The notes under the pieces: model-generated
The model's database searches: none
What the model was told of the DNA's origin: nothing
The model's input: the letters and a program-made list of their open reading frames with translations, nothing else
Source of the DNA: Kitasatospora acidiphila
GTDB lineage: Bacteria > Actinomycetota > Actinomycetes > Streptomycetales > Streptomycetaceae
DNA length: 64,000 nucleotides
Direction of reading: 5' to 3'
NCBI RefSeq assembly: GCF_006636205.1
Contig: NZ_VIGB01000003.1
Coordinates: forward strand, 6,140,501 to 6,204,500
Translations under genes and position numbers: made by a program
Shown: positions 2,347 to 61,225 of the stretch, piece after piece
How the letters are laid out: the number at the start of each line of letters is the position of its first letter
Position numbering within the stretch: the stretch's first letter is position 1

Positions 2347-3375
2347 ATGAAGCTTCTCGTGCTGGGCGGTACCTGGTTTCTCGGTCGAGCGGTAGTGGTT
2401 GAAGCTCTGTCACGTGGCTGGGAGGTGACCACGTTCACCAGGGGAAGGTCGGGCATCCCGGTCCCCGGTGCGGTTGCCGTGCACGGAGACCGCGAGAACG
2501 CCGACGACGTGGCGAGGCTCGCCGCCCAGGGACCGTGGGACGCCGTGGTCGACACTTCGGCCTCCGAGCTGGCGCCGGTCACGGTGCTCCTGGGCACCCG
2601 GGCTCTGGCGCCTGTGGCGGCGCGGTACGTCTACATCTCGACGGTGAATGTCTATGAGGGCTGGCCCAGTGAGCCGCTGTCCTTGGACTCGCCTGTTCTC
2701 GACGGGCCGCCGGATGCCGACGTCGATTACGGGAGGCTCCCGGCGGACTGGACGGGGCCGGACTACTACTACGGCCGCCAGAAGGCGGGCGCGGAGCGGG
2801 CGGTGCTTGCGGCCTTCGGCGCTGACCGGGCGTCGCTGCTGCGGCCGGGCGTCATCCTCGGACCTGGGGAGTACGTCGGCCGGCTGCCTTGGTGGCTCCG
2901 CCGGGCTGAGCGTGGCGGGCGCATCCTTGCCCCGGGGGATCCCCGGAAGACGATCCAGCCGGTGGATGTGCGAGATGTGGCTGCCTTCGCACTGGACCAG
3001 GCTCAGCAGACGGGGCTGCAGGTGCACAACGTCGTTGCACCGATTGGCAGGGAGACCATGGGGGGCTTCCTGGAGGCTTGCATGACGGCGACCAGCAGTA
3101 CGGGTGAGCTGGTCTGGGTCCCGGATGAAGTCCTGCTGCGCAGCGACCTGCGGCAGTGGAGCGAGATCCCGCTGTGGCGGACGCATCCGGGGGTGTGGCA
3201 GGTCGACGGGACATCCGCCGTAGCGGCAGGCTTCCGCAGCCGGCCCATCGCCGAGACGGTCGCGGACACGTGGGCATGGCTGTCACAGGGCAATCTGCCT
3301 GTCCCACACGCCCGTTGGGGCGAACACGGGATCTCCCCGGAGAAGGAGATCAACATCCTGGCCGGGCTCGGTTAG
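2347..3375 (+). CDS. NAD-dependent epimerase/dehydratase (extended SDR)
   Basis: A 342-aa protein starting at ATG 2347. The Rossmann nucleotide-binding loop GGTWFLG is at residues 7-13, ISTVNVYEG occupies the SDR Ser position, and YYYGRQKAGAE gives the catalytic Tyr-x3-Lys as YGRQK. Extended SDRs of this type oxidise, reduce or epimerise nucleotide sugars or other small molecules; the substrate cannot be read here. It ends 4 bp inside the end of the convergent regulator gene. It is the first non-phage gene after the head block, so it marks the left part of the cargo segment. Confidence 0.8.
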   Translation: MKLLVLGGTWFLGRAVVVEALSRGWEVTTFTRGRSGIPVPGAVAVHGDRENADDVARLAAQGPWDAVVDTSASELAPVTVLLGTRALAPVAARYVYISTVNVYEGWPSEPLSLDSPVLDGPPDADVDYGRLPADWTGPDYYYGRQKAGAERAVLAAFGADRASLLRPGVILGPGEYVGRLPWWLRRAERGGRILAPGDPRKTIQPVDVRDVAAFALDQAQQTGLQVHNVVAPIGRETMGGFLEACMTATSSTGELVWVPDEVLLRSDLRQWSEIPLWRTHPGVWQVDGTSAVAAGFRSRPIAETVADTWAWLSQGNLPVPHARWGEHGISPEKEINILAGLG

Positions 3376-5496: not shown

Positions 5497-6017
5497 AGCC
5501 GAGCGGGGTCGCGAGGTCCGTGTCGACTCCTCGCCGGCCGATCCAGTTGCCTTCGCTGACCGCTGCCCCGAGTGCTCGTTCCTTTGACCACGGGAGCGAG
5601 GGCTGGGGAGGGCCGGGAACGCGTGAGCACTACTACGACGCCAAGGCCGACGAGGTGGAGGCTCGCCGCATCCGACACCGGCTGCTCGGCCTCGCAGAGC
5701 AGTGGTGGCCCGCAGCGACGGAAGACGAGCGGGACGCACTCGGCACCGTTGCCGCCGAACTCCTCGCAAACGTCGTCCGGCACGCTCCCGGACGCGTGAC
5801 GGCGCTCTTGATCGACTCGGGCAACGGCAGCTGCGTGCTGGCCGTCGCCGATCAGAGCCCCACGGGACCGGTCACACGGCACGCGGAGCCTGGCCAGGCC
5901 GAGTCCGGCCTCGGCCTGGTCCTCGTCCAGGAGCTGACCAATAACTGGGGCTGGCACCCGATCCCGCGCGGCAAGGTCGTCTGGGCTCAACTGCCCATAA
6001 GCAGCGCCGCCTCGTGA
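5493..6017 (+). CDS. HATPase_c_2 ATP-binding (anti-sigma-like) protein
   Basis: A 174-aa protein from GTG 5493, which overlaps the preceding stop. It shows GHKL-type ATPase motifs: AAELLANVVRHAP (N box with the Mg-binding Asn), VLAVADQSP (G1-like Asp) and SGLGLVLVQELTNNWG (G2 region). Single-domain HATPase_c_2 proteins are abundant in Streptomyces. They resemble RsbW/SpoIIAB anti-sigma factors and often sit beside DUF397 or DUF5753 regulators. A DUF5753 protein follows 1.2 kb downstream, so this is probably part of the same regulatory set. Confidence 0.8.
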   Translation: MKPSGVARSVSTPRRPIQLPSLTAAPSARSFDHGSEGWGGPGTREHYYDAKADEVEARRIRHRLLGLAEQWWPAATEDERDALGTVAAELLANVVRHAPGRVTALLIDSGNGSCVLAVADQSPTGPVTRHAEPGQAESGLGLVLVQELTNNWGWHPIPRGKVVWAQLPISSAAS

Positions 6018-6132
6018 AGCTCCGGCGGCCGCCGTCGGTAGAACCCGAGCGGCGGCCACCGGCACCAAGTCCCTCCCGGCGCTATCCGGGAGGTGCCTGA
6101 AATCAGTTCAACTCGCGATTCCAGAAGGGACC

Positions 6133-7011
6133 ATGAACACTACCTTCGAGATCTGCAATGACGCTGGGAAGCCTGGGGGCGACCTGGTCGACAGCATCAC
6201 CGTCGCTCTCCAGGCTGCTGCCCCCCTTGTCGAGCAGTTCTCCCAAATGCCGCTCCCGGACCGCGTGACGGTGCGCCTGCTGACGGTCGACGCGAGTTTG
6301 GACGTGTCGGCTCAGCATTTGAACCGCGGCTTCGCTGAAGCAGCGGAGCGCGTTGGGACGGAGAGAGCGCACCAGATGGCCGCGGTGCTTGCGGAAAGGG
6401 GCACTCGGCAGTACCGCCAGTCCGAACGGCTCATGAACCCCCTGCAGTTGGGCAAGGTCGTCTATGGTTCGGAGGACGGGGCTCCGCCAGAGCTGGTGAT
6501 CACGCCAGCCGCTCACGGGGCGGCACGCTCCACTACGCGCATTCAAACCATGGTTTTCGCACACGAGTTGACCCACATAGCTCAGTGCCACAAGTGGCCC
6601 GGCATGCTCGCGTTCAACAACCTGCAGCAGCTCGAGATCACGCTGACCGGCCGGCCCCGCTCGGAGATGCGGTTGATTCCGCCGGTTAGCGAAGGGCACG
6701 CCATGGTCGTCTTCCGGCAGGTAGCCGATGAGCTGTTCGGGGCAGGCGCCAAGTTCCACGAGAAGGGCGATCGGGGGCCGACGCTGCGGTACTGGGCAAC
6801 GGCGCTGCTGTCCTTGTTGCCTCCGCTGTGCTTGGTGCGTCTGATGTACAACCAGGGCACCAAGTTCATCAGGGCGGTCATGGCGGCTGGTGGTCCGCCG
6901 CTCGTACATTCCCTGTTCGAGGACGACGGAAAGCGCCTGCCCGTAGGGGTGGAAGTCGCCAGGCCAGGGCTGTGGTTGGCCCGTTTCGGCCCGGACGGCG
7001 GAGAGGCGTGA
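6133..7011 (+). CDS. zincin-like protein with HELTH motif
   Basis: A 292-aa protein starting at ATG 6133 after an AGAAGGGA ribosome binding site. MVFAHELTHIAQ contains HExxH, the zinc-metallopeptidase signature. PPVSEGHAMVV about 50 residues later could supply the third ligand or glutamate. A hydrophobic stretch (LLSLLPPLCLVRLMY) near residue 240 may be an amphipathic or buried helix. The layout resembles actinobacterial DUF2342-type zincins of unknown substrate. Its stop overlaps the next start (GTGA). Confidence 0.6.
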   Translation: MNTTFEICNDAGKPGGDLVDSITVALQAAAPLVEQFSQMPLPDRVTVRLLTVDASLDVSAQHLNRGFAEAAERVGTERAHQMAAVLAERGTRQYRQSERLMNPLQLGKVVYGSEDGAPPELVITPAAHGAARSTTRIQTMVFAHELTHIAQCHKWPGMLAFNNLQQLEITLTGRPRSEMRLIPPVSEGHAMVVFRQVADELFGAGAKFHEKGDRGPTLRYWATALLSLLPPLCLVRLMYNQGTKFIRAVMAAGGPPLVHSLFEDDGKRLPVGVEVARPGLWLARFGPDGGEA

Positions 7012-7223
7012 GACGGTCCCGGTGGCAGCCCACCCGGCACGGCATCGCCTCTGCGAGTGACGCCCGCACCGTCCTGCCGGCGGACATCGCGAGCCGGGGC
7101 CTCCCCTGGCCGGGGCCTGATACACCGGTCGACCTCGCAGTCCACCAACTCATCGACGTCATCCGCGAGTCCGTCTACCAGCCAGCGCGGTCCAGGCATG
7201 ACGTACCTCCTGAAGCGGCTTGA
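7008..7223 (+). CDS. small hypothetical protein
   Basis: A 71-aa product from GTG 7008, overlapping the TGA of the zincin gene by 4 bp. The N-terminus is basic; the C-terminal half (DLAVHQLIDVIRESVYQ) could form an amphipathic helix. No family is recognised. The overlap is the main reason to call it. Confidence 0.4.
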   Translation: MRRSRWQPTRHGIASASDARTVLPADIASRGLPWPGPDTPVDLAVHQLIDVIRESVYQPARSRHDVPPEAA

Positions 7224-7266
7224 ATCCGTGCTCGCCTTAACCCATCACCAGTGAAGGAAGACGCTT

Positions 7267-7833
7267 ATGGGAATCGCCACTCTCACCGACCTCGCCCCGT
7301 CACAGGAGAACTTCCTCGCGCTGGCTGCCAGCGCAAGGGACGAGAAGGTGTTTGAATCGCTGTTCATCTGGGGCGATCTGCAGACCCGCGACTATGCGAC
7401 CGAGCTGTTCCGGCGCGGCGGCACATCGCAGGCTGACGTCGACGCGGCTGTCGCCGCGCGGCTCGCGCGGCGACAGTACATGGACGGCACCCGCACCTAC
7501 CACGTCGTGATGACCGAGAGCACCTTGCTCTCGGGCTTCGGCGGACGAGAGGTGATGAACAATCAGCTCCGTTATCTACTGGAGGCCATGACCACGCCTG
7601 GCTTGACGCTCGGCATCATCCCGGCGACGGCTGAGATGCCGGTCGTCCCCGGTGGCGGCTTCGCGATCATCAACGGCGTGCGTGTGGAGTTCGACGACTA
7701 CGAGGGCCACAGCACTGCCACCGACATGGCAGCGGTCAGGCGCTTCAACGACGCCTTCGATCAGCTCAGTAACGTCGCTGTGTTCGGCGACGATGCGCGA
7801 GACCTGATCACCGCGGTGATCGACGCCCGCTGA
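7267..7833 (+). CDS. DUF5753 protein lacking its usual HTH domain
   Basis: A 188-aa protein starting at ATG 7267 behind GAAGGAAG. The sequence fits the DUF5753 domain of Streptomyces HTH regulators: WGDLQTRDYA near the N-terminus, RLARRQYM, QLRYLLEAM, LGIIP and the C-terminal FDQLSNVAVFGDDARDLI. DUF5753 proteins normally carry an HTH_31 domain of about 80 residues in front, which is absent here, and no HTH frame lies just upstream. It may act as a stand-alone sensor for another regulator, or be a truncated derivative. Confidence 0.75.
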   Translation: MGIATLTDLAPSQENFLALAASARDEKVFESLFIWGDLQTRDYATELFRRGGTSQADVDAAVAARLARRQYMDGTRTYHVVMTESTLLSGFGGREVMNNQLRYLLEAMTTPGLTLGIIPATAEMPVVPGGGFAIINGVRVEFDDYEGHSTATDMAAVRRFNDAFDQLSNVAVFGDDARDLITAVIDAR

Positions 7834-8121: not shown

Positions 8122-8829
8122 ATGACAGACAAGTCACCATGCCACGCCATAGTGATCGCCTCCGGTGGGCTCGACAGCACCACCGTGGCGTACTGGCTCG
8201 CCGACCGAGGAGCCATCCTCACCATGCTGTCGTTCGACTACGGGCAGCGGCACCGTACGGAGCTGCAGTACGCCGGGCGTATCGCCGGTCACCTCGGTGC
8301 TTCGCACGAGGTCGTCGACTTGAGTGGGCTCGGTCGGCTGCTGACCGGGTCGGCTCTCACGGACCTGGGTGTGAGGGTCCCGGATGGCCACTACACCGCC
8401 GAGACCATGCGCAGCACCGTCGTGCCGAACCGCAACACGATCATGCTGTCCGTTGCCGTCGCGGGGGCCGTCGCGACGGGCGCGGACGCCGTGGCGTTCG
8501 GCGCACACAGCGGGGATCACGCGATCTACCCGGACTGCCGAGCCAGTTTCTTCGACCAGTTCGCGGCGATGACGCGGGAAGGCAACGAGGGTTTCCTCGC
8601 CGACGGGTTCGAGCTGCTGGCGCCGTTCATCGGCCTGACGAAGGCCGACATCGTGGAGATCGGGCGGCAGTTGGGCGTGCCGTTCGAGGACACCTGGTCC
8701 TGCTACAAGGGCGGCCAGGTGCACTGCGGGACCTGCGGGACGTGCACCGAGCGGATCGAGGCGTTCGCGCTGGCGGGCGTAAGCGACCCCACCGTCTACG
8801 CCAGCGCCACCCCAGGGGCGGCCTCGTGA
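8122..8829 (+). CDS. queC: 7-cyano-7-deazaguanine (preQ0) synthase QueC
   Basis: A 235-aa protein from ATG 8122 after ACGGAG. QueC converts 7-carboxy-7-deazaguanine to preQ0 with ammonia and ATP. The PP-loop SGGLDST is at residues 14-20, the SFDYGQRH motif follows, and the C-terminal zinc-binding cysteines are in SCYKGGQVHCGTCGTC. It opens a chain of genes that mostly overlap by 4 bp (GTGA/ATGA) to 17022, so a single operon is likely. Length and motifs are those of an intact enzyme. Confidence 0.95.
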   Translation: MTDKSPCHAIVIASGGLDSTTVAYWLADRGAILTMLSFDYGQRHRTELQYAGRIAGHLGASHEVVDLSGLGRLLTGSALTDLGVRVPDGHYTAETMRSTVVPNRNTIMLSVAVAGAVATGADAVAFGAHSGDHAIYPDCRASFFDQFAAMTREGNEGFLADGFELLAPFIGLTKADIVEIGRQLGVPFEDTWSCYKGGQVHCGTCGTCTERIEAFALAGVSDPTVYASATPGAAS

Positions 8830-9221
8830 CCGCGTTAACCGGAGAGCACCGGATCGGCAAGCGGTTCCGGTTCGAGGCCGCGCACTACCTGCCCGGCCTG
8901 CCCGATGGGCACCAGTGCGCCCGGCTGCACGGCCACTCCTATGAGGTGGAGTTCGTCCTGACCGCCGACCGGCTGAGCGGGCCCGGCTTCGTCACGGACT
9001 TCGGGGACCTGGCGCCGGTCAAGATGATGATCGACAGTGCCCTCGACCACCGCGTCCTGAACGAGGCGCTGCCCGAGCTCGTACCGACCTCGGAGAACCT
9101 GGCCGCCTACTTGGCCGGCTGGTTCGTCGAGCACGTCGAGCCCGGCCTCCCTGGCCGCCTGACCGCGGTGCGGGTGTCGGAGACCGCGAGCAGCTGGGCG
9201 CAGTTCGAGGTGGCCCGGTGA
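8826..9221 (+). CDS. queD: 6-carboxytetrahydropterin synthase QueD
   Basis: A 131-aa protein from GTG 8826, overlapping the queC stop. QueD turns 7,8-dihydroneopterin triphosphate into 6-carboxy-5,6,7,8-tetrahydropterin. The zinc ligands are visible as His20 (FEAAHYL) and His35/His37 (LHGHSYEVE), with catalytic Cys31 just before them. DFGDLAPVK, DHRVLNE and the Glu near the C-terminus (RVSETASSWAQF) are also typical. It appears complete and active, and acts between FolE and QueE. Confidence 0.95.
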   Translation: MTALTGEHRIGKRFRFEAAHYLPGLPDGHQCARLHGHSYEVEFVLTADRLSGPGFVTDFGDLAPVKMMIDSALDHRVLNEALPELVPTSENLAAYLAGWFVEHVEPGLPGRLTAVRVSETASSWAQFEVAR

Positions 9222-9931
9222 GCGCGCCCGTCCGGGAGGAACCCGGGGCCCGGGGACTGCTGATCGCCGAGACCTTCGGCCCCACCTTCCAGGGCGAGGG
9301 CCCGACCGCCGGGCGGCAGGCGTTGTTCATCCGGCTTTCGCGCTGCAACCTGCACTGCCCCAGGTGCGACACCCCGTACACGTGGGACTGGACCAGGTTC
9401 GATCCGAGTGAGGTCTCCACCCGCCACAGCGTCGAGGACGTGGCGGCCTGGGTGACGGACCGGCTGACGGCGCGGGTGGTCGTCACCGGCGGTGAACCAC
9501 TGATCCAGCAGCGCGAGCTGCTGAGGCTGGTCCAGCTGCTGCCGGACCGGCGGGTCGAGATCGAGACCAACGGGACGATCGTTCCGCTGCCCGAACTCGT
9601 GGGACTGGTCGAGGGGTTCAACGTCTCCCCGAAGTTGGCCGGCTTCGCGGCCCTGGACGATCAGGCGGTCAACGGCGCGGCGCTGCGGGTGCTGGCGGCG
9701 TCCGGCAAGGCCCGATTCAAGTTCGTCGTCCGGCAGGTCGCGGAGCTGGAGGAAATCGCGGCCCTGGTCGACGAGTTCGATCTGACCGAGGTGTGGGTGA
9801 TGCCGGAGGGAACGAGCAGTGGCGCGGTGCTCGCGGGGATGCGCGCGCTGGCGGACGCGGTGCTGGCTCGCGGCTGGAATCTCAGCAACCGCCTGCATGT
9901 GCTGCTCTGGGAGGATGAACGTGGCCGGTAA
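9218..9931 (+). CDS. queE: 7-carboxy-7-deazaguanine synthase QueE
   Basis: A 237-aa radical SAM enzyme from GTG 9218, overlapping queD. It rearranges carboxytetrahydropterin to 7-carboxy-7-deazaguanine. The cluster ligands are Cys43, Cys47 and Cys50 (CNLHCPRC), preceded by FGPTFQGEG, the usual QueE N-terminal motif. VVVTGGEPL is the SAM-binding GGE motif, and NVSPKL is another QueE signature. With queC, queD and the downstream folE the four-step preQ0 route is complete. Confidence 0.95.
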   Translation: MSAPVREEPGARGLLIAETFGPTFQGEGPTAGRQALFIRLSRCNLHCPRCDTPYTWDWTRFDPSEVSTRHSVEDVAAWVTDRLTARVVVTGGEPLIQQRELLRLVQLLPDRRVEIETNGTIVPLPELVGLVEGFNVSPKLAGFAALDDQAVNGAALRVLAASGKARFKFVVRQVAELEEIAALVDEFDLTEVWVMPEGTSSGAVLAGMRALADAVLARGWNLSNRLHVLLWEDERGR

Positions 9932-10871
9932 GGACAGCAAGACGCCCGAGTGGGGCGGTCGTTCCGGATCCCCGAGGCCGCGCGTGTTGGGTAGCGGCCA
10001 AGCGTGTAGAGGGGGGAGCGGGAGCCTGCCTGCCACTCGGGCTGTGCCCAGCATACCCAACTCCTCGGCTGCGCGCGCCCATTCGCTGATGCCGTTTCTC
10101 GTGGATCCCAAGCACCTGAAGCGGGCGGCCCGTGCCTGCATGCGCCGGGGTGGGGCTCCTGGAGCGGACGGGATGAGCTGGGCGCAGTTCCGTACCGGCT
10201 TGTCCGGCCGCCTCGCAGATCTTGCTGAGCAGCTGCACGCCGGCACCTGGCAGCCGAGCCCCGTGCGGGAGGTCGCGATCACGGCCTACACCGGCAAGGT
10301 GTTCACGGCGGTGATTCCGACCGTCGCCGATCGGGTGGTGCAGCGGGCGATGCGCAACGCCATCGAACCGGTGCTGGAGGCAAGGGCGTTCGCCGACTGG
10401 GTGTCCGGCTACCGGGCCGGTCGCAACCGGATCACGGCGTTGCGAGACGCCGACCGGCACCTGCGGGCCGGGCACCGGTGGGTGGCGGACCTGGACGTGC
10501 GCCAGACCTCCGCCGGGTCCAGCGCGGCTGAGGTCACTGACTGGCTGGCCGAGCATGTCGCCGACGGGACCTTCCTCGGCTACTTCCGCAAGGTGCTGGA
10601 GCCGCTGCCGTACCCGATCGTGCCCGGCACCGCGCTGGCGCCGCTGCTGATCAACTTGCGGCTGTCTCGCGCAGACGCGGCGCTGGCCGGCTACTGGGTG
10701 GTGCGGTTCGCCGACAACTACTGCCTGTTCTGCCGTGACGAGAAGCAGGCTCGCGAGGCGATGGCCGCCGTCATGGAGGCCCTGGCCGGGTGCGGTCTTG
10801 AGCCGCATCCGGACAAGAGCCAGATCCGATGCGGTGTCAACGCCGAAGATCTCTTCCTGATCGCCGGATGA
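9915..10871 (+). CDS. reverse-transcriptase-like protein with altered active site
   Basis: A 318-aa protein from ATG 9915 (GGGAGG just upstream), overlapping queE by 17 bp. The first 60 residues look disordered. Then the fold follows group II intron/DGR-type reverse transcriptases: GADGMSWAQF, LAEQLHAGTWQP, IPTVADRVVQRAM, SGYRAGRN, VADLDV (first catalytic Asp region, but lacking the FFD that usually follows), GTALAPLLINL (where PQG-x-x-SP is usual) and VVRFADNYCLF, where YADD is replaced by FADN. Loss of the second Asp argues against normal polymerase activity. No maturase domain is seen. It sits directly before an FGE/C-type-lectin-fold gene, an arrangement known from diversity-generating retroelements. 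Confidence 0.8.
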   Translation: MNVAGKDSKTPEWGGRSGSPRPRVLGSGQACRGGSGSLPATRAVPSIPNSSAARAHSLMPFLVDPKHLKRAARACMRRGGAPGADGMSWAQFRTGLSGRLADLAEQLHAGTWQPSPVREVAITAYTGKVFTAVIPTVADRVVQRAMRNAIEPVLEARAFADWVSGYRAGRNRITALRDADRHLRAGHRWVADLDVRQTSAGSSAAEVTDWLAEHVADGTFLGYFRKVLEPLPYPIVPGTALAPLLINLRLSRADAALAGYWVVRFADNYCLFCRDEKQAREAMAAVMEALAGCGLEPHPDKSQIRCGVNAEDLFLIAG

Positions 10872-10885
10872 GGGGAGGCGACATC

Positions 10886-11446
10886 ATGGAGAACAACCCT
10901 GACCAGCAGTTGGTGTGGGTTCCGGTCCCGGGCGGCATCTGCCTGTTCGGCGACCGGCAGCGCCGGGTGAAGGTGCCAGACCTCGAATGGACAGTCACCC
11001 CGCTCACCTTGGCCCAGGCCGGGCAGGGCGGCGGTGCGCTCCCGCTGACCGGCCTGGTCCACGCACAGGCCGCCCGGCTGGCAGCCGACCTCGGCGGGCG
11101 GCTACCCCGCTCCTCAGAGTGGGAGTGGGCGGCTTCCGGCCCCGGCCGCAGGCTCTACCCGTGGGGCGGCGAGGAGCCCGGCCCCGGCAGGGCGAACTTG
11201 CGCGGCGGCCCCGGCCGGCTGACCGCGGTGGACGCCCATCCGGACGGAGTGACGCAGCAGGGCCTACTCGACATGGGCGGTAACTGCTGGGAGTGGACCT
11301 CATCTCCGACCATCGGCGGCGGCTTCATCATCCGGGGAGGCTCCTACAACTCCCTGTCCCTGTACGCCCGGTGCACGTTCCTGAACGCGGCTCCGGCCGA
11401 GCTGGGCTCCGCAGGCATCGGCGTGCGGGTGGTGAGGGCGACATGA
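10886..11446 (+). CDS. FGE/SUMF1-like (C-type-lectin-fold) protein
   Basis: A 186-aa protein from ATG 10886 behind GAGGGGAGG. It shows formylglycine-generating-enzyme family landmarks: VWVPVPGG at the start, RLPRSSEWEWAA, YPWGG, MGGNCWEWTSS, IIRGGSYNS and the terminal IGVRVVRAT. Catalytic FGE cysteines are not evident; only Cys in NCWEW and ARCTF occur in the core. The protein is short (about 180 instead of 280-300 residues), so it may be a binding rather than oxidase protein. In diversity-generating retroelements the variable region is the C-terminal part of just this fold (from the GGSY motif on), and an RT-like gene lies immediately upstream. Confidence 0.8.
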   Translation: MENNPDQQLVWVPVPGGICLFGDRQRRVKVPDLEWTVTPLTLAQAGQGGGALPLTGLVHAQAARLAADLGGRLPRSSEWEWAASGPGRRLYPWGGEEPGPGRANLRGGPGRLTAVDAHPDGVTQQGLLDMGGNCWEWTSSPTIGGGFIIRGGSYNSLSLYARCTFLNAAPAELGSAGIGVRVVRAT

Positions 11447-11886
11447 TCAGGGACCTGGTGATCGCGGGTTGCTCCCGTCGCAAGGCACCGGAGCGCAGGC
11501 CGCTGCCCGCGTTGGAGCGGTACACCGGCGGTATCGCCCCGCACTTGCGGACGAGATTCGCCGGCCATCGGCAGGCGCGGGAGCGCATCCGCTTCCTGTC
11601 GGCCGAGCACGGGCTCATCCGCGCCGACGCCCTGCTCACCTCGTACGACCGGCAGCTGACGGTCGCGCGTGCCGAACGGCTGCGCCCACTCATTGCCGAG
11701 CAACTGGAGCACGAGTTCCAGAACCGGGGAGTCCCCGAGCGAGTTCTACTCGTGCTGGAGCCCGCGTACCTGGTGCCGCTCGCCGACCTGCTCGCCCACC
11801 CAGCACGGCCCGCCCTGCAATGGATTTACGACCCGCGCGGTTGGGCCGAGGCCGCCGCCGTCCTCGACGAATGGAGGTGGCCGTGA
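11443..11886 (+). CDS. DUF6884-like protein
   Basis: A 147-aa protein from ATG 11443, overlapping the previous stop (ATGA). It has the DUF6884-type pattern: an N-terminal LVIAGCSRRK, ALERYTGG, IRFLSAEHGLI and LTSYDRQL. The biochemical function of the family is not known to me, but members occur in phages and in mobile islands. Within a preQ0 operon it could act on a deazaguanine-containing substrate; that is inference from context only. Confidence 0.65.
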   Translation: MIRDLVIAGCSRRKAPERRPLPALERYTGGIAPHLRTRFAGHRQARERIRFLSAEHGLIRADALLTSYDRQLTVARAERLRPLIAEQLEHEFQNRGVPERVLLVLEPAYLVPLADLLAHPARPALQWIYDPRGWAEAAAVLDEWRWP

Positions 11887-12917
11887 CCGCCACGCTCGCG
11901 GATACGCTCAAGACGCGCTCCAACGACCACAGTTACATCACCGGTGGGTTCTACGGCGGTACCAGGGTTGGCTGGCACCAGCCGACTCCAGCAGCGGCCG
12001 CCGAAGGCCGTCCGCTGTCGGTGGTGCTCCCGGCCCACAACACCGCATACGCCCTGCCGACGGTGCTGGACGCGCTCGCCGCGCAGCACACCGCCGGGCC
12101 GGTGGATGTGATCGTCGTGGACGACGCCTCCACCGACAACACCTTCGAGATTGCCCGTCGGCACCCCGTGGTCACCACCGCCGTGCGGTTGGCGACCCGG
12201 TCCGGCTCGGCCGGTGCCCGCAACGTCGGCGCCCGCCTCGCCCAAGCGGAGAACCTGCTGTTCGTGGACTCGGACATGGTGCTGCCCTCGCACGTGCTCG
12301 CGGACTTCGCCGCCCGTGCCCGGCCCGAGACCGTGCTGACCGGCTTCCGCCACAACCTTCCCTTCCTGCGCACCGCGTGCGGGCCGATGCTGCCCGAGAA
12401 CCCGCCGCAGCTGGCCGCCGACCACCGCGTCACCTGGACGCCGCCGATCAACACCCTGCTGCCGTACTCCGGCATCACGCTCACCGAGCCGCTGCACGGC
12501 CGACCGCTTGATGCCACCGACGACTTCCAGAACCTCGGGTACGGCCGGTTCTACTACGACTGGGACCTGCCCCGGATGGCTGTCACCGCGCTGCTCGGCG
12601 TCCCCCGCGAGCGCCTCGTGGACGTCGGCGGCTTCGACGAGGAGTTCGGCCGGATCGGCTGGGGCATGGAGGACACCTACCTGGGTGCCGCGCTGATTGC
12701 CGCTCGCTGCCTGGTCGTCCCGCTGCGTCAGGCCGTCGGCTACCACCTCGACCCGCCAGACGCCGCCGCCCAGTGGCAGACCAAGCTCGCCGCCTGGCCC
12801 GCCACCCTCGCCCACTACCGGACCCTGCTCGCCCAGCCGGCCCCCACCGGGCGAGGGCGCGACTTCGCTGCTGCCACCGACAAGCTCCTGACCGACGCCG
12901 AGGTGATCACCGCATGA
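11883..12917 (+). CDS. family 2 glycosyltransferase (GT-A fold)
   Basis: A 344-aa protein; GTG 11883 is chosen because GGAGGTGG lies just upstream and it overlaps the previous stop (ATG 11871 is an in-frame alternative). It has LSVVLPAHN at the start of the GT-A domain, VIVVDDASTDNT for nucleotide-sugar binding, FVDSDMVLP as the DxD motif and a GWGMEDTYLG acceptor-side motif. It would transfer a sugar from a nucleotide donor to an unknown acceptor. It is soluble, with no membrane segments. It is one of two glycosyltransferases in the operon. Confidence 0.9.
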   Translation: MTATLADTLKTRSNDHSYITGGFYGGTRVGWHQPTPAAAAEGRPLSVVLPAHNTAYALPTVLDALAAQHTAGPVDVIVVDDASTDNTFEIARRHPVVTTAVRLATRSGSAGARNVGARLAQAENLLFVDSDMVLPSHVLADFAARARPETVLTGFRHNLPFLRTACGPMLPENPPQLAADHRVTWTPPINTLLPYSGITLTEPLHGRPLDATDDFQNLGYGRFYYDWDLPRMAVTALLGVPRERLVDVGGFDEEFGRIGWGMEDTYLGAALIAARCLVVPLRQAVGYHLDPPDAAAQWQTKLAAWPATLAHYRTLLAQPAPTGRGRDFAAATDKLLTDAEVITA

Positions 12918-13861
12918 TCCGCACGTTCGCCGCCGCCGACATCCACGGCACCACCGTCGTCCACGACCCGGCCACCGGCACCAACCACCTGCCGGCGCGG
13001 CCGTTGCCGCCCGGACCCCTCGGCCTGGATGAGCAGGAGGTCGCGGCCTGGCCCGAGGCCATGCACGGCCAGCTCAAGCCGACCGCGCCGCTGAGCATGT
13101 GCTGGTCGCCGATCGTGCGGTGCAACCTCACCTGCCCGCAGTGCCTGGACGACAAGCGCGTGCGCGAGTCCACCGCCGAGGAGCGTCGCACCCTGGCCAG
13201 GCACATCGGCGAGTCCGGGATCTTGGGCGTGGACATCTCCGGCGGAGAGCCGCTGCTGTTGCGCGACCTGCCCGACCTCGCCCTGGCGATCCGCGCCGGC
13301 CGCCAGGCGGTGGTCAGCTGCACCACCAACGGCTGGCACCTGGCCAGGCGCGCCCCCGAGCTGGCCCCCGCGCTCGACGCCATCCGCATCTCACTGGACG
13401 GCGCCACCGAGGCCACCCACGACGCTTGGCGCGGAGCCGAGAGCTACAGCCGGGCGATCGACGGCACCCGTGCCGCAGTCGGCGAGGGTCTGCGGGTCCA
13501 GTTCCAGATGGTGCTGATGCGCTCCAACCAGCACGAGGCGCAGGCCCTGCTGGAGTTGGCCGCGCAGCTCGGCGTCGGCGGCGTGACCTTCCTGCAGATG
13601 CTGCCCATCGGCGAAGGCAAGGCCATCGCCGAACAGCAGATGCTCACCGACGACCAGGCCACCGCCGCCATCGAAGCCCTCACCGTCCCCGATGGGCTGC
13701 GGGTGCGGCTTCGTACCCGCGACAGCGCCGACGGCTTCACGGTGCTGCGTGCTGACGGCTACGCATGGCGCAATACCGGTGGCGCCACCGGCATCGCCGC
13801 GTTCATCCCCGTCACCGGCCCCCAGGATCTGCACCTGCCCACCGCCCGGAGCGCATCGTGA
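12914..13861 (+). CDS. radical SAM protein
   Basis: A 315-aa protein from ATG 12914 (ATGA overlap). Cys70, Cys74 and Cys77 (CNLTCPQC) bind the SAM [4Fe-4S] cluster; VDISGGEPLLL is the SAM-binding motif, and RISLDGATEATHDAWRG matches MoaA/SPASM-type radical SAM proteins. No extra C-terminal cysteine cluster (SPASM) is visible, so a single cluster is likely. The reaction is unknown. Candidates include C-C bond formation or dehydrogenation on the deazapurine or sugar, but nothing in the sequence decides. Confidence 0.85.
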   Translation: MIRTFAAADIHGTTVVHDPATGTNHLPARPLPPGPLGLDEQEVAAWPEAMHGQLKPTAPLSMCWSPIVRCNLTCPQCLDDKRVRESTAEERRTLARHIGESGILGVDISGGEPLLLRDLPDLALAIRAGRQAVVSCTTNGWHLARRAPELAPALDAIRISLDGATEATHDAWRGAESYSRAIDGTRAAVGEGLRVQFQMVLMRSNQHEAQALLELAAQLGVGGVTFLQMLPIGEGKAIAEQQMLTDDQATAAIEALTVPDGLRVRLRTRDSADGFTVLRADGYAWRNTGGATGIAAFIPVTGPQDLHLPTARSAS

Positions 13862-14415
13862 CCGACACCGCCCAGCAGCCCGCTGGCGGGCAGCGCCTCT
13901 TCGCCCGCACTGCGCCCTACGTCCCCACCCTCTACCAGTGCTACGCCGCCGCCCGCCTCATCGCCGAGTCCGTGGTCGGATGCGAGCCACCGGTGACCGC
14001 GGTTGTCGGCATCGCCAACGGTGGCACCAGGCCAGCCACCGTGATCGCCGACTACCTCAAGGTCCCGCTGCACCTCATCATCGCTCGGCACAACCCGACG
14101 GACGAGCTCTGGCAGCAGGCCACCGGCGATGTCACCGTGACCCTACCTGGCGGTCTGCCAAGGCAGTTCGACGGCACCGTGCTGCTGGTCGACGACATCG
14201 CTGGGTCCGGCGCCACCTTCACGGCCGTCTCCCGCGCCCTGCTCGGTACCGGGGCCGTACTGAAGACCGCGGCGCTGTGCCGCAATGCCGGCTGCGCCGA
14301 AGGCCCCGACCGCTGGGTCTGGGACGTGGACGACTGGGTCGTTTTCCCCTGGGAGGCAACCCACTCCGGCGAGACCCGGCAGCTGCCGGTGCCGAAGGAG
14401 GTGGCGACCCGGTGA
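13858..14415 (+). CDS. phosphoribosyltransferase
   Basis: A 185-aa protein from GTG 13858 (GTGA overlap). LLVDDIAGSGATF around residues 109-121 is the type I phosphoribosyltransferase PRPP-binding loop. VVGIANGGTRPA is the PPi-loop region. The end (DDWVVFPWEA) resembles the hypoxanthine/xanthine/GPRT subgroup. In toyocamycin clusters a PRTase (ToyH) attaches phosphoribose to preQ0, so a similar step is a reasonable inference here, giving a preQ0 nucleotide. The base specificity cannot be read from the sequence. Confidence 0.85.
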   Translation: MTDTAQQPAGGQRLFARTAPYVPTLYQCYAAARLIAESVVGCEPPVTAVVGIANGGTRPATVIADYLKVPLHLIIARHNPTDELWQQATGDVTVTLPGGLPRQFDGTVLLVDDIAGSGATFTAVSRALLGTGAVLKTAALCRNAGCAEGPDRWVWDVDDWVVFPWEATHSGETRQLPVPKEVATR

Positions 14416-15551
14416 CCACGAGCGCCACGTCCCGTGGCGTGCTGCTTGTCCTCGTATCCTGGGCGCCCGACGCCCCCGCCGGCATCGAACGCGCCACAGC
14501 TGCCCTCGCTCTGGGCCTCGCCCAAGCAGGGCACCGCCCCGTCATCGCCACCGCCGCCCCACTGCCTGACCGGCCTGGCCTGCCGGGCGTGCGGGTGGAG
14601 CGGCTGCACCTGGCCGGGGTGACGTTCCCCTGCGACGACGAGACCCTGCGCCGCGCTATCACCTGGCAGGACAATGACCTCTGCCAGCAGATCCGCGAGC
14701 TGATCACCCAGCACCGGACTGACACCGTCCTGTTCGCCGACGCGCTGTGGGGACTCGGTCGCCTGAGCGGTGACCTCCCAGGCCACGTTCACCGTGTCCT
14801 GGCCGCCCACGTCCAGCCCGCCACCCTGGACGCCGGCCCGGCGCTGGCCAGGGCGAGCCACGTCATCGTCCCCTCCGCCTTCATCCACGAGCAGCTGGAG
14901 CTGGCAGGATGGGCGCTGCCGGCTACGAGAATCGTGCCCAACGCCTTGCTGTCCGGCCCGGCAGTTGCCGCGCCCAGCAGTGCACGGCGCGAGGAGCTGC
15001 GCCGCAGCGGCCCGGTCAGGGTCCTGGCCCGGCTCGGGGCGGAGAAGGGCGTGGCCGAACTCCTCGAAGCCGCCGCCGGCTGGGACCGTCCGCTGGACGT
15101 TGCGCTCGCCGAAGCCGGATTCGAGGACGCCACAGGCTCCCAGGCCACGCTGCTGGCCCACTGCCGGACGCTGGCCGTCCAGCACTCGAACGTCCGACTT
15201 CGTGGCGCGCTCGCCTGGCAGGAGGTGCTTGGCTGGCTCGCGGACGCCGCTGTGGTGATCGTTCCGAGCCACCGGGAAACCTTCGGCCTGGTCGCGCTGG
15301 AGGCCATGAGCGTCGGAACTCCAGTCGTCGCCTACCGCGTCGGCAACCTGCCCGCGCTCATCGAGCCGACGGGGCACGGCGAACACCTGCTCGTGCCGCG
15401 CGACGCGGGCCCTAACGCCCTCCACAAGGCGGCACAGACCCTCCTGGAAGATGACATACTGTACGGCGCGACTACACAGACCGTGTACCGGCGGGCCCAG
15501 GACTTCACGCCCTACCGGATCGCCAACCTCTTCTTGGAGGCGATCTCGTGA
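14412..15551 (+). CDS. family 4 glycosyltransferase (GT-B fold)
   Basis: A 379-aa protein from GTG 14412 (GTGA overlap). PAGIERATAALALGLAQAGH is a GT4-type N-terminal motif (a variant of the usual GGxE region). ASHVIVPSAF leads into the linker, RVLARLGAEKGVAELLEA is the C-domain start, and IVPSHRETFGLVALEAMSVGTPVVA is split over the E-x7-E donor-binding motif, followed by NLPALIEP. It is a retaining GT-B enzyme using a nucleotide-sugar donor. Together with the GT2 enzyme and the deacetylase it implies a glycosylated, probably amino-sugar-bearing product. Confidence 0.9.
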   Translation: MTTSATSRGVLLVLVSWAPDAPAGIERATAALALGLAQAGHRPVIATAAPLPDRPGLPGVRVERLHLAGVTFPCDDETLRRAITWQDNDLCQQIRELITQHRTDTVLFADALWGLGRLSGDLPGHVHRVLAAHVQPATLDAGPALARASHVIVPSAFIHEQLELAGWALPATRIVPNALLSGPAVAAPSSARREELRRSGPVRVLARLGAEKGVAELLEAAAGWDRPLDVALAEAGFEDATGSQATLLAHCRTLAVQHSNVRLRGALAWQEVLGWLADAAVVIVPSHRETFGLVALEAMSVGTPVVAYRVGNLPALIEPTGHGEHLLVPRDAGPNALHKAAQTLLEDDILYGATTQTVYRRAQDFTPYRIANLFLEAIS

Positions 15552-16414
15552 TGCCCGCATCCACCACCGGCCCCGCCCCGCTCCTGCTCGTGGACGGCTT
15601 CAACGTCTTGTGGGCCGGAACCTTCGGCTTCCCCGCCGAGGTGCGCTCCCGCGACAAGACCCGTGAACTCACCGGCCTGTTCGCGTTCTTCGCCCTGCTG
15701 CGCGCCACGATCCGCGACGACCTCGATGTGGACCCACCTGAGGTCGTAGTTGTCTTCGACGGGGAACACGGCACCGCTGATCGCGTGGCCGCCGACCAGG
15801 GCTACAAGGCCAACCGCGAGGCGACCCCTGAAGCCCTCAAGCCGCTGCAGTTCCTCGCCCCGGTCAAGGAGGGCCTGGACCAGCACGGTATCCGTTGGGT
15901 CGAACTGCCAGATCAAGAGGCGGACGACGTGATCGCCACCCTCACCACACGGGCCGCCCAGACCCGACCGGTGCGGATCATGTCCCGCGACGCCGACTAC
16001 TACCAGCTGCTCACCGACCAGATCCGCATCATCAATCGATCCCGCAAGGCGACCCGGCGGCTCATCACCACCGCCGAAGTCATCGAACGCTACGGCGTCA
16101 CCCCCACACAGTGGCCGGACTTCCGCGCCCTGACCGGCGACAAGTCCGACAACATTCCTGGCGTCAGGGGAGTCGGCGCCAAAGTCGCCTCCCAACTCCT
16201 TCGCGACAACATCGCGTTGGATGACCTGCCGACCTCGGGTCGACTGGCCGGCGCCAAGGGTAAGGCGATCATCGCGAGCTGGGGCGACGTCTTGCGCTGG
16301 CGCGACGTGATCACGATGCAGCGCGACCTCGATGTGCCGCTCATCCCTACGGGCGAGGTCAGCCCCCAACTACCCAAGCCCGCTGAGGTGGTGGAGAAAC
16401 TGGGGCTGTGGTGA
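15548..16414 (+). CDS. 5'-3' exonuclease / flap endonuclease homologue
   Basis: A 288-aa protein from GTG 15548 (or ATG 15551). It corresponds to the N-terminal nuclease domain of DNA polymerase I, as in phage T5 and stand-alone exonucleases: LLVDGFNVLW, VVVVFDG, GYKANRE, DQEADDVIAT, IMSRDADYYQLL and GDKSDNIPGVRGVGAK (helix-hairpin-helix). Most metal-binding acidic residues appear present, so it may be catalytically active. A DNA-processing nuclease is unexpected inside a run of biosynthetic genes that overlap by 4 bp. It might act on modified nucleic acid, or give phage-related repair. Confidence 0.88.
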   Translation: MMPASTTGPAPLLLVDGFNVLWAGTFGFPAEVRSRDKTRELTGLFAFFALLRATIRDDLDVDPPEVVVVFDGEHGTADRVAADQGYKANREATPEALKPLQFLAPVKEGLDQHGIRWVELPDQEADDVIATLTTRAAQTRPVRIMSRDADYYQLLTDQIRIINRSRKATRRLITTAEVIERYGVTPTQWPDFRALTGDKSDNIPGVRGVGAKVASQLLRDNIALDDLPTSGRLAGAKGKAIIASWGDVLRWRDVITMQRDLDVPLIPTGEVSPQLPKPAEVVEKLGLW

Positions 16415-17022
16415 GCGCCCCTGGTTCGATCCTGGCCCTCTTCGCGCACCCCGACGACGCCGAACTCTGGGCAGGTGCCACTCTGGCCCACCATGCCGCC
16501 CACGCCCGGGTCACCGTCGCTGTTCCCCACCGGGACGCCGTTCGGGATGCCGAGGCCGTCGCAAGTGCCGCGGTGCTCGGCGCCGACCTGCGTCAGCTTC
16601 CCGTCCTCGATGCCCCGGCGGTTCATGCCCTGCTCATGGACACCGAGCCCGACATCGTCATCACCCACCCGCTGCGCGACGTGCACCCCGAGCACCGGGC
16701 CGTCGCCGAAGCCGTCCTCACGGCCCTGCCTGAACCGGTGATCGCCACCGGCCTTCCGAGCAGGCTCTACACCTGCGACACCTACAACTCGCTCACTCTG
16801 GACGGTCCGCTGCGGGCCGACACCATCGTGGACGCAACTGCCACGTTCCCCACCAAGATCCGGGCGCTGAAGGCCCACGCCTCCCAGCCAATCGCCGAGC
16901 ACTTCGGCCCGATGGCCGAACACCTCGGCCGACTCTGGGGTGCCCGGATCGGCGCCGACTACGCCGAAGCGTTCACCGCCCTGCCCATCCTCGGTCGCCT
17001 GCCTGCGGCCACCCAGCTCTGA
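16411..17022 (+). CDS. PIG-L family (LmbE-like) deacetylase
   Basis: A 203-aa protein from GTG 16411, overlapping the exonuclease stop. LFAHPDDAELWAG carries the zinc motif (His13, Asp16), and DVHPEHRAVAEAV gives the third ligand region. PIG-L enzymes remove acetyl groups from GlcNAc moieties, as in mycothiol (MshB) and several antibiotics. Here it would deacetylate a sugar added by one of the two glycosyltransferases; the substrate is inferred. It ends the overlapped part of the operon; folE follows after 102 bp. Confidence 0.9.
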   Translation: MSAPGSILALFAHPDDAELWAGATLAHHAAHARVTVAVPHRDAVRDAEAVASAAVLGADLRQLPVLDAPAVHALLMDTEPDIVITHPLRDVHPEHRAVAEAVLTALPEPVIATGLPSRLYTCDTYNSLTLDGPLRADTIVDATATFPTKIRALKAHASQPIAEHFGPMAEHLGRLWGARIGADYAEAFTALPILGRLPAATQL

Positions 17023-17124
17023 CCACACCATCGTCCGAGCCGAAATCGGGTCGACCCCACGCCGGGCCGCCACCGGTATCCGTCATGCAATGGCCTCAAC
17101 CGTCATGCCCTGAAAGGGGAAACC

Positions 17125-17715
17125 ATGGCATCCATACCAACTCCCACCCGCCGCCCTGTCGATACCGGGCGCGTCGAACACCTCACCCGCGAACTGCTCG
17201 TCGCTCTCGGCGAGGACCCCGACCGCGAGGGCCTGGCCGACACGCCACGCCGGGTCGCCGCGTGGTGGACGGACTTCCTCGACCGCGACCACGGCACACT
17301 CGGCACCACCTTCACCCACAGCACCACCCACGACGACTTCGTCCTGCTGCGCGGCATTGAGGTCTGGAGCCTGTGCGAGCACCACCTGCTCCCGTTCCGT
17401 CTCACCGTCTCCATCGCCTACGTTCCCCAAGCACAGGTCCTCGGCTTGTCCAAGCTCGTCCGTCAACTCCGAGTCCACGCCCACGCGTTGCAGCTCCAGG
17501 AGCGCATCACCGCTGACGTCGCCGGCGACCTTGCCAAGGCCGCCGGCACGGACGACGTCGCGGTCTACGCCGAGGGCGAGCATCTGTGCATGAGCATGCG
17601 TGGCGTCGAGACGGGATCGGTGCGGACCGTCACGTCCTGCCGTCTCGGCCGTACCGCCAGCGACCCCGAACTGGCCGCCCGGATTGAGCGGTTGGCTCTT
17701 GCATCTGCTCGATAG
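17125..17715 (+). CDS. folE: GTP cyclohydrolase I FolE
   Basis: A 196-aa protein from ATG 17125 with an AAAGGGG ribosome binding site. It opens the GTP imidazole ring to form dihydroneopterin triphosphate, the first step of preQ0 synthesis. The zinc ligands are in LCEHHLLPF (Cys84, His86 and/or His87) and EHLCMSMRGV (Cys155). GLSKLVR and LQLQERIT are standard FolE motifs. It is probably a second copy, dedicated to this cluster, since folate synthesis normally has its own folE. It lies 102 bp after the deacetylase and closes the cargo block. Confidence 0.95.
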   Translation: MASIPTPTRRPVDTGRVEHLTRELLVALGEDPDREGLADTPRRVAAWWTDFLDRDHGTLGTTFTHSTTHDDFVLLRGIEVWSLCEHHLLPFRLTVSIAYVPQAQVLGLSKLVRQLRVHAHALQLQERITADVAGDLAKAAGTDDVAVYAEGEHLCMSMRGVETGSVRTVTSCRLGRTASDPELAARIERLALASAR

Positions 17716-17798
17716 GCGCTCGGCGAAGCCTCGTCCCATCCTGGTGCTGGCGCGCCGGTCCGGTGGAGTGTCAGCTGCGATTCCTACGCTCAGAGCCA

Positions 17799-18262
17799 TG
17801 ACTACCCCCACACCCATGGCCACGGTCGACGCTGGCGGGCTGCTGCCCGCCAGCGTTGCTGGTTTGGTCGAACGACGACTCCTGACCGACATCGTGCGCA
17901 TCTACCGAGCGGGTGCACCCGTCCTCAACCCGGACACCGGCCAGATGGAACCCGGCCCGGACACCGTCATCTGGGAGGGGCCCGGAGCGCACAAACCCGC
18001 TGGAGGCCCTGGGCTGGTCCTGCGCCTGGAAGGCCAGGCGTACAAGGACGACGGGGACTCCCGGTACATCCTGTTCACTCCGCTGTCCGCCCCGGCCGCT
18101 CAGGTGGGCGACATGGTCACCGTCGTGCACAGCGATGACAGCGCGGCGGTCGGCCGGGTGTGGCGCGCCATGGATCCGGGCGAGTCCGGCACCGTGCAGG
18201 TCGTGCGGTCCACCTGGATGCGAATCGAACACGTCGCGTCGGCTCCGGGTGGTGCTTCGTGA
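17799..18262 (+). CDS. phage head-closure-like protein (DUF6093-type), copy 1
   Basis: A 154-aa protein from ATG 17799. It contains DIVRIYRAG, PVLNPDTGQ, IWEGPGA and FTPLSAPAAQVGDMVTVV, a pattern I associate with the DUF6093 family in actinophage head-tail connector regions. The next gene encodes a paralogue with the same order of motifs. It resumes the late phage operon after the cargo block. Confidence 0.65.
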
Positions 18263-49044: not shown

Positions 49045-49280
49045 GTGATCATTCTGACGGTCCGGTACCGCCCGGCACAGCAACCGGACGACGCGTCACA
49101 ACAGGGCGAAGGTTGTCTGAAGCGGCACTAGCGCAGGGCAAAGCTGGGCAGGGCGGGTGATTTGATGACTGCCATGTGCCGGGCTAGTGATCGTACAGTC
49201 GCAATCCCTGTATGCCAGGTTTCGTGCTGATGGCTGCATCGGTCTGATCCCCGTTGACGAGGCGGGCCCTCGCACATCGG

Positions 49281-54072: not shown

Positions 54073-54090
54073 ACTTCGTGACCTGCGGTG

Positions 54091-54369: not shown

Positions 54370-54373
54370 GTGG

Positions 54374-56151: not shown

Positions 56152-56155
56152 CGGG

Positions 56156-58161: not shown

Positions 58162-58232
58162 GCGCTGCTCCTCAGAGGTTTGATCAACATAGCTGTGCAT
58201 TAAGGGAGTTCTGTGACAGAAGGCGCTCGCCG

Positions 58233-61197: not shown

Positions 61198-61225
61198 GTA
61201 GTCTTTGCGGCTGAGTCCTGCCAGT

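Follow-up and report, generated by a model that had tools for sequence, protein, structure and literature searches.

The described pathway nearest to the locus reported here is the huimycin cluster (huiA-huiG) of Kutzneria albida, in which homologues of queC, queD, queE and folE stand with a glycosyltransferase and whose product is a glycoside derived from 7-cyano-7-deazaguanine (preQ0) and bearing N-acetylglucosamine (GlcNAc) (PMC7439116). We analysed a 64,000-nucleotide stretch of Kitasatospora acidiphila (NZ_VIGB01000003.1, positions 6,140,501 to 6,204,500; hereafter the window; source genome of 8.58 Mb in three contigs), in which 13 genes, all on the + strand from queC at 8122 through folE at 17715, combine the preQ0 genes with sugar enzymes, a reverse transcriptase (RT)-like protein and a nuclease. 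We suggest, with a probability of roughly 0.45, that this operon is a pathway to a glycosylated, preQ0-derived 7-deazaguanine nucleotide, coupled to a ribonucleoprotein (RNP) derived from a group II intron RT. An earlier note on this DNA had held that no known preQ0 user contains this combination. Huimycin is a described cluster of preQ0 genes with a glycosyltransferase, and to that extent the claim was too broad, though in the available text of PMC7439116 the seven hui genes, as annotated, include no RT, FEN, FGE, DUF6884, phosphoribosyltransferase (PRT) or PIG-L gene, and no radical S-adenosylmethionine (SAM) enzyme beyond QueE. The huimycin cluster also has a regulator and a SAM methyltransferase (HuiC, for the 6-methoxy group; PMC7439116), whereas no methyltransferase family was found by Pfam among the 13 genes of the window.

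The toyocamycin pathway shares the preQ0 genes (toyB, toyC, toyD and toyM) but has no counterpart of the huimycin glycosyltransferase, and its description in the available part of PMC7439116 makes no mention of an RT, FEN or RNA. Dpd DNA modification has in common with the window a preQ0 supply and a DUF6884/DUF328-type protein (DpdC); it differs in that there is no DpdA or tRNA-guanine transglycosylase (TGT) in the genome and no restriction family among the 13 genes (Pfam). ArcS acts on the preQ0 nitrile of a nucleoside but is another protein, as described in the available text of PMC11298593. Group II introns share the RT subfamily, by sequence and fold, and an RNA adjoining the RT gene. However, the window RT has no thumb or maturase domain, reads FADN in place of YADD, and no match to an intron RNA model was obtained. 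Diversity-generating retroelements (DGRs) also place an RT beside an FGE-domain gene, but no template/variable repeat pair was detected here at the thresholds used. In the open-licence literature, no title matched a pathway with preQ0, 7-deazaguanine or deazapurine plus an RT and a glycosyltransferase (a description elsewhere is possible), none matched a group II-like RT with a noncoding RNA and a gene cluster in Streptomyces, and no paper was found that links an RT to the chemistry of small molecules or of base modification. Mobility, mutagenesis and defence are the settings in which RTs with partner RNAs are known. If the RNP contributes to synthesis of the product, RTs would have gained a new function, as would RNA in metabolism, with a bearing on how bacteria could make glycosylated 7-deazaguanines. 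Even on a modest reading, the structured RNA family is new, the RT group is distinct, and the preQ0 glycoside clusters form an uncharacterised family with two members in related prophages.

The features of the operon are the following (PRPP, phosphoribosyl pyrophosphate; pLDDT, predicted local distance difference test score).

8122 to 8829, + strand: queC, 7-cyano-7-deazaguanine synthase (PF06508, QueC, 8.7e-64; TIGR00364, 191 bits against a cut-off of 150)
8826 to 9221, + strand: queD, 6-carboxytetrahydropterin synthase (PF01242, PTPS, 3.6e-29)
9218 to 9931, + strand: queE, 7-carboxy-7-deazaguanine synthase, radical SAM (PF04055, 4.4e-9; homologue in 12 other RT clusters, 51-75% identity)
9944 to 10042, + strand: putative structured RNA, a single long hairpin with internal loops and a 10-bp basal stem (covariation; model match at 9926-10091)
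10089 to 10871, + strand: RT-like protein of the group II intron RT type without a thumb (RVT_1, 1.6e-13; TIGR04416, 137.7 bits against a cut-off of 300; 6ar1, Z 18.4; motif C with DN in 13/13)
10886 to 11446, + strand: FGE-sulfatase-domain protein (PF03781, 7e-16; nine-sequence alignment without an invariant Cys)
11443 to 11886, + strand: DUF6884 protein, DpdC/YaaA-like (DUF6884, 1.5e-6, 28.8 bits, just below the cut-off of 30; AF2 model, pLDDT 93.7; YaaA 5caj, Z 10.9)
11883 to 12917, + strand: GT2 glycosyltransferase (PF00535, Glycos_transf_2, 1.3e-18; in 11/13 RT clusters)
12914 to 13861, + strand: radical SAM enzyme with CX3CX2C (PF04055, 3.5e-17; the three Cys in 11/11)
13858 to 14415, + strand: class I PRT (PF00156, Pribosyltran, 4.6e-17; PRPP loop in 12/12)
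14412 to 15551, + strand: GT4 glycosyltransferase, MshA/BshA-like (PF13692, Glyco_trans_1_4, 1.7e-20; GT4-conflict, 9.6e-9; R, K and E-x7-E in 13/13)
15551 to 16414, + strand: 5' nuclease of the FEN / Pol I 5'-3' exonuclease type (PF02739 N-domain, 3e-31; C-domain, 4.7e-16; nine acidic positions in 13/13)
16408 to 17022, + strand: PIG-L deacetylase, BshB1-like (PF02585, 7.2e-10; TIGR04001, 6.5e-13, below its cut-off; AHPDD in 11/11)
17125 to 17715, + strand: folE, GTP cyclohydrolase I (PF01227, GTP_cyclohydroI, 7.1e-52; homologue in 8/13 RT clusters)

All 13 genes assigned to named families in the earlier note were recovered by Pfam on one strand, although that note missed the RNA, the prophage setting, the age of the set and the probable function of DUF6884. 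These genes are compact, and the overlaps described there as mostly of 4 bp are exact at 7/12 junctions; the remaining junctions are a 157-nt gap (queE/RT), a 14-nt gap (RT/FGE), a 1-bp overlap (GT4/FEN), a 7-bp overlap (FEN/PIG-L) and a 102-nt gap (PIG-L/folE). The mechanical RT open reading frame starts at 9819, inside queE, and the start was corrected to that of the conserved protein, ATG 10089, which leaves 157 nt after the queE stop at 9931 (the RT search query started at 10092, one codon past this ATG). A longer RT form, from GTG 9921 and reading through the RNA, is possible. FolE, QueD, QueE and QueC are all encoded (Pfam, NCBIfam), so that the preQ0 pathway is complete in the operon, and the genome has a single full-length QueC-type match, the second covering only part of the profile (24 bits). 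QueC proper is not common among relatives: a match of some kind was obtained in 84/100, at least 60 bits in only 12 and at most 32 bits in the rest.

GT4 and RT were each searched in 297 genomes of the family (thresholds 1e-40 and 1e-45), and the presence of genes in each cluster was scored by tblastn at 1e-5 with the window's proteins, within the fetched stretches (G and L numbers are our labels for genomes and loci). RT was found in 9/297 genomes, every time inside this cluster, and these nine, together with G061, Embleya sp. NBC_00888 (a plasmid record) and G801 and G890 from a class sample, make up the 13 RT clusters, 12 of which are from sampled genomes, including the window's, and one from the plasmid record. 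The earlier note had proposed a search for co-conservation, and seven genes (queD, queE, RT, FGE, DUF6884, GT4 and FEN) do occur together in 13/13. Both queC (none seen near G185) and PRT (none detected in Embleya) were present in 12/13, and GT2, radical SAM and PIG-L of the window's type each in 11/13; the other two clusters have a PIG-L of another subfamily (G185, by Pfam; Embleya, 78% identity to that of G185). folE was found in 8/13, none being seen in the fetched stretch of G061, G262, G286, G801 or G890, and the complete preQ0 set is therefore not universal. Eleven clusters (type I) have the gene order of the window; G185 and Embleya (type II) are rearranged, with a different glycosyltransferase replacing GT2. 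The gene set is far beyond chance, because the identical order recurs in 10 other clusters, and, as judged from these 13 RT-bearing clusters with seven common genes, 11 of them in one order, it is old. GT4 was more widespread (18/297), with a que gene or folE in the fetched stretch of 17/18; only G137, where the copy is broken and the contig short, has none. The tie of GT4 to preQ0 genes holds even at 33-40% identity.

The gap between queE and RT is strongly conserved across nine loci (mean column identity 75%), and RNAalifold predicted from them a long hairpin in which 11/32 pairs are double-changed. For 30 named pairs in these nine sequences, 95.9% of the cells are paired, with double changes in 10 pairs and 21 cells, compared with 4.8 pairs and 6.3 cells in shuffles (0/500 as high), and when the partner was slid by 1-3 columns only 37-54% remained paired. 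With 13 sequences, 15/30 pairs had compensatory double changes (54 cells against 18.1 in shuffles, the alignment being fitted to the model), and a model-free MAFFT alignment of the 13 gave double changes in 13/24 pairs. An invariant U-G pair (13/13) implies that the RNA lies on the sense strand of the operon. A covariance model built from the nine loci was run over 25 sources and later over 14, some of them repeated. In the 25 sources, all nine training loci were recovered and L038 (51.1 bits) and L086 (48.6 bits) were found blind, the next matches being at 10.9 and 10.7 bits; in the 14 sources, L103 (97.0 bits) and L107 (71.4 bits), neither of them in the training set, were also found blind. 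The RNA was thus found in 13/13 RT clusters, and in the family sample (E<=0.01, strict filters) it was found in 9/297 genomes, the same nine that have the RT; neither occurs in the other nine GT4 genomes of that sample. Folded singly, the window sequence was more stable than its shuffles (z -3.3), as were L012 (z -2.8, with a different fold) and L036 (z -1.95).

A long conserved structure upstream of a gene could also be a metabolite riboswitch for RT or FGE, with the RT as a generic RNA chaperone. We consider this very improbable: in the family sample the RNA accompanies only this RT (9/9, against 0/288 other genomes at E<=0.01), it is not found in RT-less preQ0 clusters apart from one weak antisense match, and no Rfam match was obtained at E<=1 between 7000 and 18500 of the window.

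At none of the 13 loci does the RNA interrupt the frame of the gene after it (RT for type I, FGE for type II), which stays open, and the preceding gene's stop is overlapped by a GTG or ATG. The internal gaps of the RNA region are of 3, 6 or 9 nt among the first nine loci, with 1- and 2-nt gaps also in L107. A plain protein extension of the RT, as the sole explanation of the gap, was rejected, since divergence by codon position is flat there (0.256/0.280/0.253, nine loci), compared with about 0.22/0.19/0.42-0.49 inside RT, and compensatory pair changes are impossible from coding. We take the region to be a structured RNA that may be translated as well. Group II intron RTs bind their own intron RNA at domain IV, and a title cited in the available text (PMC4005650, its reference 18) calls that site the RT's own coding segment. 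By analogy, this binding offers an origin for the arrangement of RNA and RT seen here. The type II RNAs (L038 and L086) have folE on one side and FGE on the other; they do not stand before RT, from which GT4 separates them.

By sequence, the RT-like protein has group II intron RTs as its nearest relatives (best NCBIfam model TIGR04416, 5e-40, its 137.7 bits being below the cut-off; 5hhj, 6.1e-33). Its model is of moderate quality (pLDDT 72), and the reading of the active site therefore rests on the sequence alignment; among the matches listed, the group II RT 6ar1 was the best (242 residues, 3.6 A), followed by the DGR RT 8ub7 (Z 17.9). The protein ends after the palm, at 260 aa. The two metal-binding Asp, D135 and D208, and also N209 are found in 13/13 sequences and S140 in 12/13, with Ala once (Embleya). 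Motif C reads [FM][AT]DN in 13/13, with DN for DD, and motif A keeps its Asp, the fifth residue on being Ser or Ala, compared with Phe in the aligned group II RT. Loss of the aromatic steric-gate residue in RTs favours ribonucleotides. No intron ribozyme RNA was matched in the Rfam search given above, and the PADLOC generic RT model (8.1e-39) scored better than the models of the DRT classes (RT_UG4, 1e-12). A wider search returned 18/396 genomes of the phylum at 1e-30, namely the window's own (495 bits) and 17 with at best 106-133 bits, nearly all in longer open frames, which are probably true group II introns. A DGR was rejected: the scan for A-directed template/variable repeats in 60-nt windows was empty over 1.5-22 kb of the window, and 40- and 60-nt windows gave no such repeat for the FGE genes of L086, L107 and the window (two chance matches in all came from shuffled controls).

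The absence of TGT/DpdA in the earlier note extends to the whole genome, with 0 matches to PF01702, 14/14 control genomes being positive. Regarding DUF6884, PF21818 was matched in 10/10 members and PF03883 weakly in 5/10 (best 0.0045). The family has the motifs CxxxK and LSAxxGL, with C10 and K14 in 13/13; ArcS carries a CxxxK-type motif. The model of the window protein resembles YaaA and also AF0587 (2q07, Z 8.8), the next matches listed being at 6.0. In the available texts, the Pfam authors link DUF6884 to YaaA and to nucleic-acid lesions (PMC11701544), dpdC is assigned DUF6884 (PMC11888242), and DpdC turns dPreQ0 into dADG by hydrolysis (PMC12839542). By sequence and model, DUF6884 is placed in the DpdC/YaaA fold group, with an invariant CxxxK, and its probable role is processing of the preQ0 nitrile. 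In the PRT the PRPP loop is conserved, and the toyocamycin pathway reportedly includes a phosphoribosyltransferase too. ArcS accepts the nucleoside, and a 5'-phosphate improves its activity, according to the available text of PMC11298593; this preference suits a PRT product as the nitrile substrate.

GT4 and PIG-L resemble the mycothiol and bacillithiol enzymes for GlcNAc transfer and deacetylation, with all NCBIfam scores under the curated cut-offs. GT2 and GT4 may resemble the animal queuosine glycosyltransferases QTGAL and QTMAN. All nine acidic positions assigned to the FEN active site are kept. FGE enzymes have copper-site cysteines, and the nine aligned FGE proteins have no invariant Cys. 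In L035, L036, L049 and L107 (type I), PIG-L is followed by genes for a DegT aminotransferase and a Gfo/Idh/MocA protein, to which L036 adds a HAD phosphatase; we take this set, by analogy, to be possibly a kanosamine-type amino-sugar supply cassette, and the sugar may vary between clusters.

In the mechanism that we propose, FolE, QueD, QueE and QueC would produce preQ0 by the established pathway, as their homology indicates, and the PRT would join it to PRPP to give a 5'-phosphate nucleotide. DUF6884 may then alter the nitrile, as its membership of the DpdC/YaaA group suggests; GT4 would add an amino sugar that PIG-L deacetylates, as in mycothiol and bacillithiol synthesis, GT2 a second sugar, and the radical SAM enzyme could tailor it. 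The formation of a preQ0 nucleotide, its nitrile processing and the addition of one or two sugars receive fair support from the sequences, and the pair of options named in the earlier note, a glycosylated 7-deazapurine nucleoside or a hypermodified nucleic acid, is the right one in view of the GT4-preQ0 tie, the PRPP loop and the DUF6884 group. Comparison between clusters shows this chemistry coupled, in a subset of them, to a module of RT, RNA, FEN and FGE. The RT-like protein is predicted to bind the structured RNA encoded just upstream. Least certain is the last step, in which the RNP would act on ribonucleotides, so that RNA is what the modified base is built on, copied into or joined to, and FEN would trim or release it; there are weak indications that the module acts on an RNA carrying or templating the product, and the RNA may be substrate, template or regulator. 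The strongest form, that a repurposed group II intron RT and a small RNA build or carry the glycosylated 7-deazaguanine in an RNA-scaffolded or RNA-templated biosynthesis whose product is released or trimmed by a 5' nuclease, is doubtful.

Twelve GT4 clusters without RT were fetched; FGE was found in 0/12 of them and FEN only in two decayed ones. Seven of these (type III: G056, G015, G141, G206, G786, G921 and G891; loci L039-L041, L044 and L104-L106) have neither RT nor RNA; they encode an exonuclease of the RNase T family, a DegT aminotransferase and a radical SAM enzyme other than the window's, and most add a thymidylate-kinase-like protein; L044 also carries an IMP dehydrogenase gene. Three others (G184, G200 and G331; L042, L043 and L045) combine queC, queD, queE, folE and GT4 with a methyltransferase gene that all three have nearby, and resemble the huimycin cluster in composition. 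G043 (L034; without queCDE, RT and FGE, and with a truncated DUF6884) and G137 (L037; with a frame-broken GT4 and a truncated FEN) look, by sequence, like decayed relatives. The earlier note would have counted loci lacking most of the non-que genes against its reading; in part such loci exist, 7 of the 18 GT4 family genomes having preQ0 genes and GT4 but no RT, FGE or FEN, and two more being decayed.

A somewhat less probable explanation is that the operon is an ordinary, if elaborate, nucleoside natural-product cluster of the huimycin or toyocamycin kind. It would yield a preQ0 glycoside in free form. The RT would bind RNA in its own message and regulate the second half of the operon, as a leftover from group II intron RTs, and self-protection would fall to FEN or, in some RT-less clusters, to the exonuclease of the RNase T family. 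The recurrence of GT4 and preQ0 genes without RT or RNA, including in the seven type III clusters and the three huimycin-like ones, fits this explanation, as do the sugar genes of some type I clusters, the position of the RNA directly upstream of RT or FGE with the frame open through it, the binding of a group II RT/maturase to its own coding segment (the title cited in PMC4005650, available in part), and the location of the G039 and G286 loci less than 200 kb from the end of a long contig. However, no exporter or regulator family is common to most RT clusters in the flanks compared, which also hold no other protein family common to all or most of them; the type II RNA precedes FGE, with GT4 separating it from RT; and pure regulation leaves the constant company of FGE and FEN with RT and RNA unexplained.

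Several observations weigh against the coupled pathway that we prefer. GT4, the preQ0 genes and sometimes PRT and DUF6884 occur without RT, RNA and FGE, so that the sugar chemistry can do without the RNP; the role of RT and RNA could be purely regulatory; and the decay of the G043 and G137 copies indicates that the system is dispensable. TGT is absent, and no other known enzyme for putting preQ0 into nucleic acid was recognised. In the Embleya cluster no PRT was detected, and the steric-gate residue is Ala. Among the families that 3-5 clusters have in common in their flanks are HAD, TPR and methyltransferase proteins and some without a Pfam match, and an exporter may be one of them. Regarding the RNA, the RT-less locus L106 has a weak antisense match (20.1 bits, E 0.019), above which nothing was found in the RT-less loci searched, and the two type II RNAs folded alone are no more stable than shuffles (z 0.26 and -0.70). 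The RNA could also be a translated leader instead of a free RNA: the open frame has the lowest ratio of nonsynonymous to synonymous differences (pN/pS), 0.77 compared with 1.11 and 1.04 in the other frames for 13 sequences, 0.69 compared with 1.22 and 1.09 for seven divergent sequences, and 0.29 for the type II pair alone, which has few differences.

The window contains much of a prophage, which carries the operon as cargo, with its head genes on one side and its tail genes on the other. The flanking genes are the following.

19 to 873, + strand: major head protein of the host prophage, on the upstream side of the cargo (phrog_29, 3.6e-55; 92% identical homologue at the same place in G002)
1494 to 2300: minor-head-type prophage protein, upstream of the operon
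17762 to 18262, + strand: DUF6093 protein of the host prophage, on the downstream side of the cargo (PF19586, 1.3e-21; phrog_13779, 2.3e-28)
23302 to 26655, + strand: tape measure protein of the host prophage (phrog_1533, 2.1e-41; 69% identical in L001)

Neck, major tail, tape measure and endolysin genes lie downstream of the DUF6093 gene. In G002, also a Kitasatospora, the operon is at the same place in a related prophage, the head and tape measure proteins being 92% and 69% identical. No relatives of four of these phage proteins were detected in the fetched stretches of the other 11 RT clusters, and the phage therefore seems to have picked the cluster up. The contig IMGVR_UViG_2896115756_000003 (IMG/VR, 66.9 kb) is 100% identical across GT4 and RT and, by arithmetic, would start about 21 kb ahead of the window and end about 45.7 kb inside it; it is the only viral contig with both genes, two others having short matches to the GT4 profile. 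No similar DNA was found in phages or plasmids by megablast, and the GT4 protein had no match in phages at 1e-10 and two plasmid records at 1e-20.

This cargo position in two genomes could point to self-marking in defence or phage competition, in which a glycosylated 7-deazaguanine would mark prophage or host nucleic acid, FEN would attack unmarked molecules and the RT-RNA pair would act as a sensor. The GT4-conflict match, the DpdC-like DUF6884 and the matches of the radical SAM enzyme to prokaryotic viperin models (PADLOC pVip, 2.9e-16) are consistent with such a role, although MoaA models score higher for the latter and the NCBIfam viperin model gave 39 bits against a cut-off of 180. RT-RNA pairs are common in defence. 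We nevertheless regard self-marking as improbable, since the genome has no TGT/DpdA, none of the 13 genes matched a helicase, ATPase or restriction family in Pfam, the models matched in PADLOC are broad, and no relatives of the phage genes were detected in the fetched stretches of 11/13 RT clusters.

An NAD-dependent epimerase-like gene (PF01370, 1e-5) without a PHROG match at 0.001 occupies 2479-3375, after the head genes and ahead of the operon. Past the computed end of the prophage, an IS630 transposase gene (47911-48936) separates it from a CRISPR region, with an array of about 75 repeats, mostly at 61-bp spacing, and type I-E genes (49268-54100 and 54091-63417): Cas2e, Cas1e, Cas5, Cas7, Cse2 and the Cas3 helicase, together with a short Cse1 match (43.4 bits, below the cut-off of 70). 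Before queC, at 5655-7833, the window encodes a protein with a histidine-kinase-like ATPase domain and a DUF5753 protein, which are possibly regulators of the operon, and related ATPase genes are found near queC in G002 and G061 (34-40% identity).

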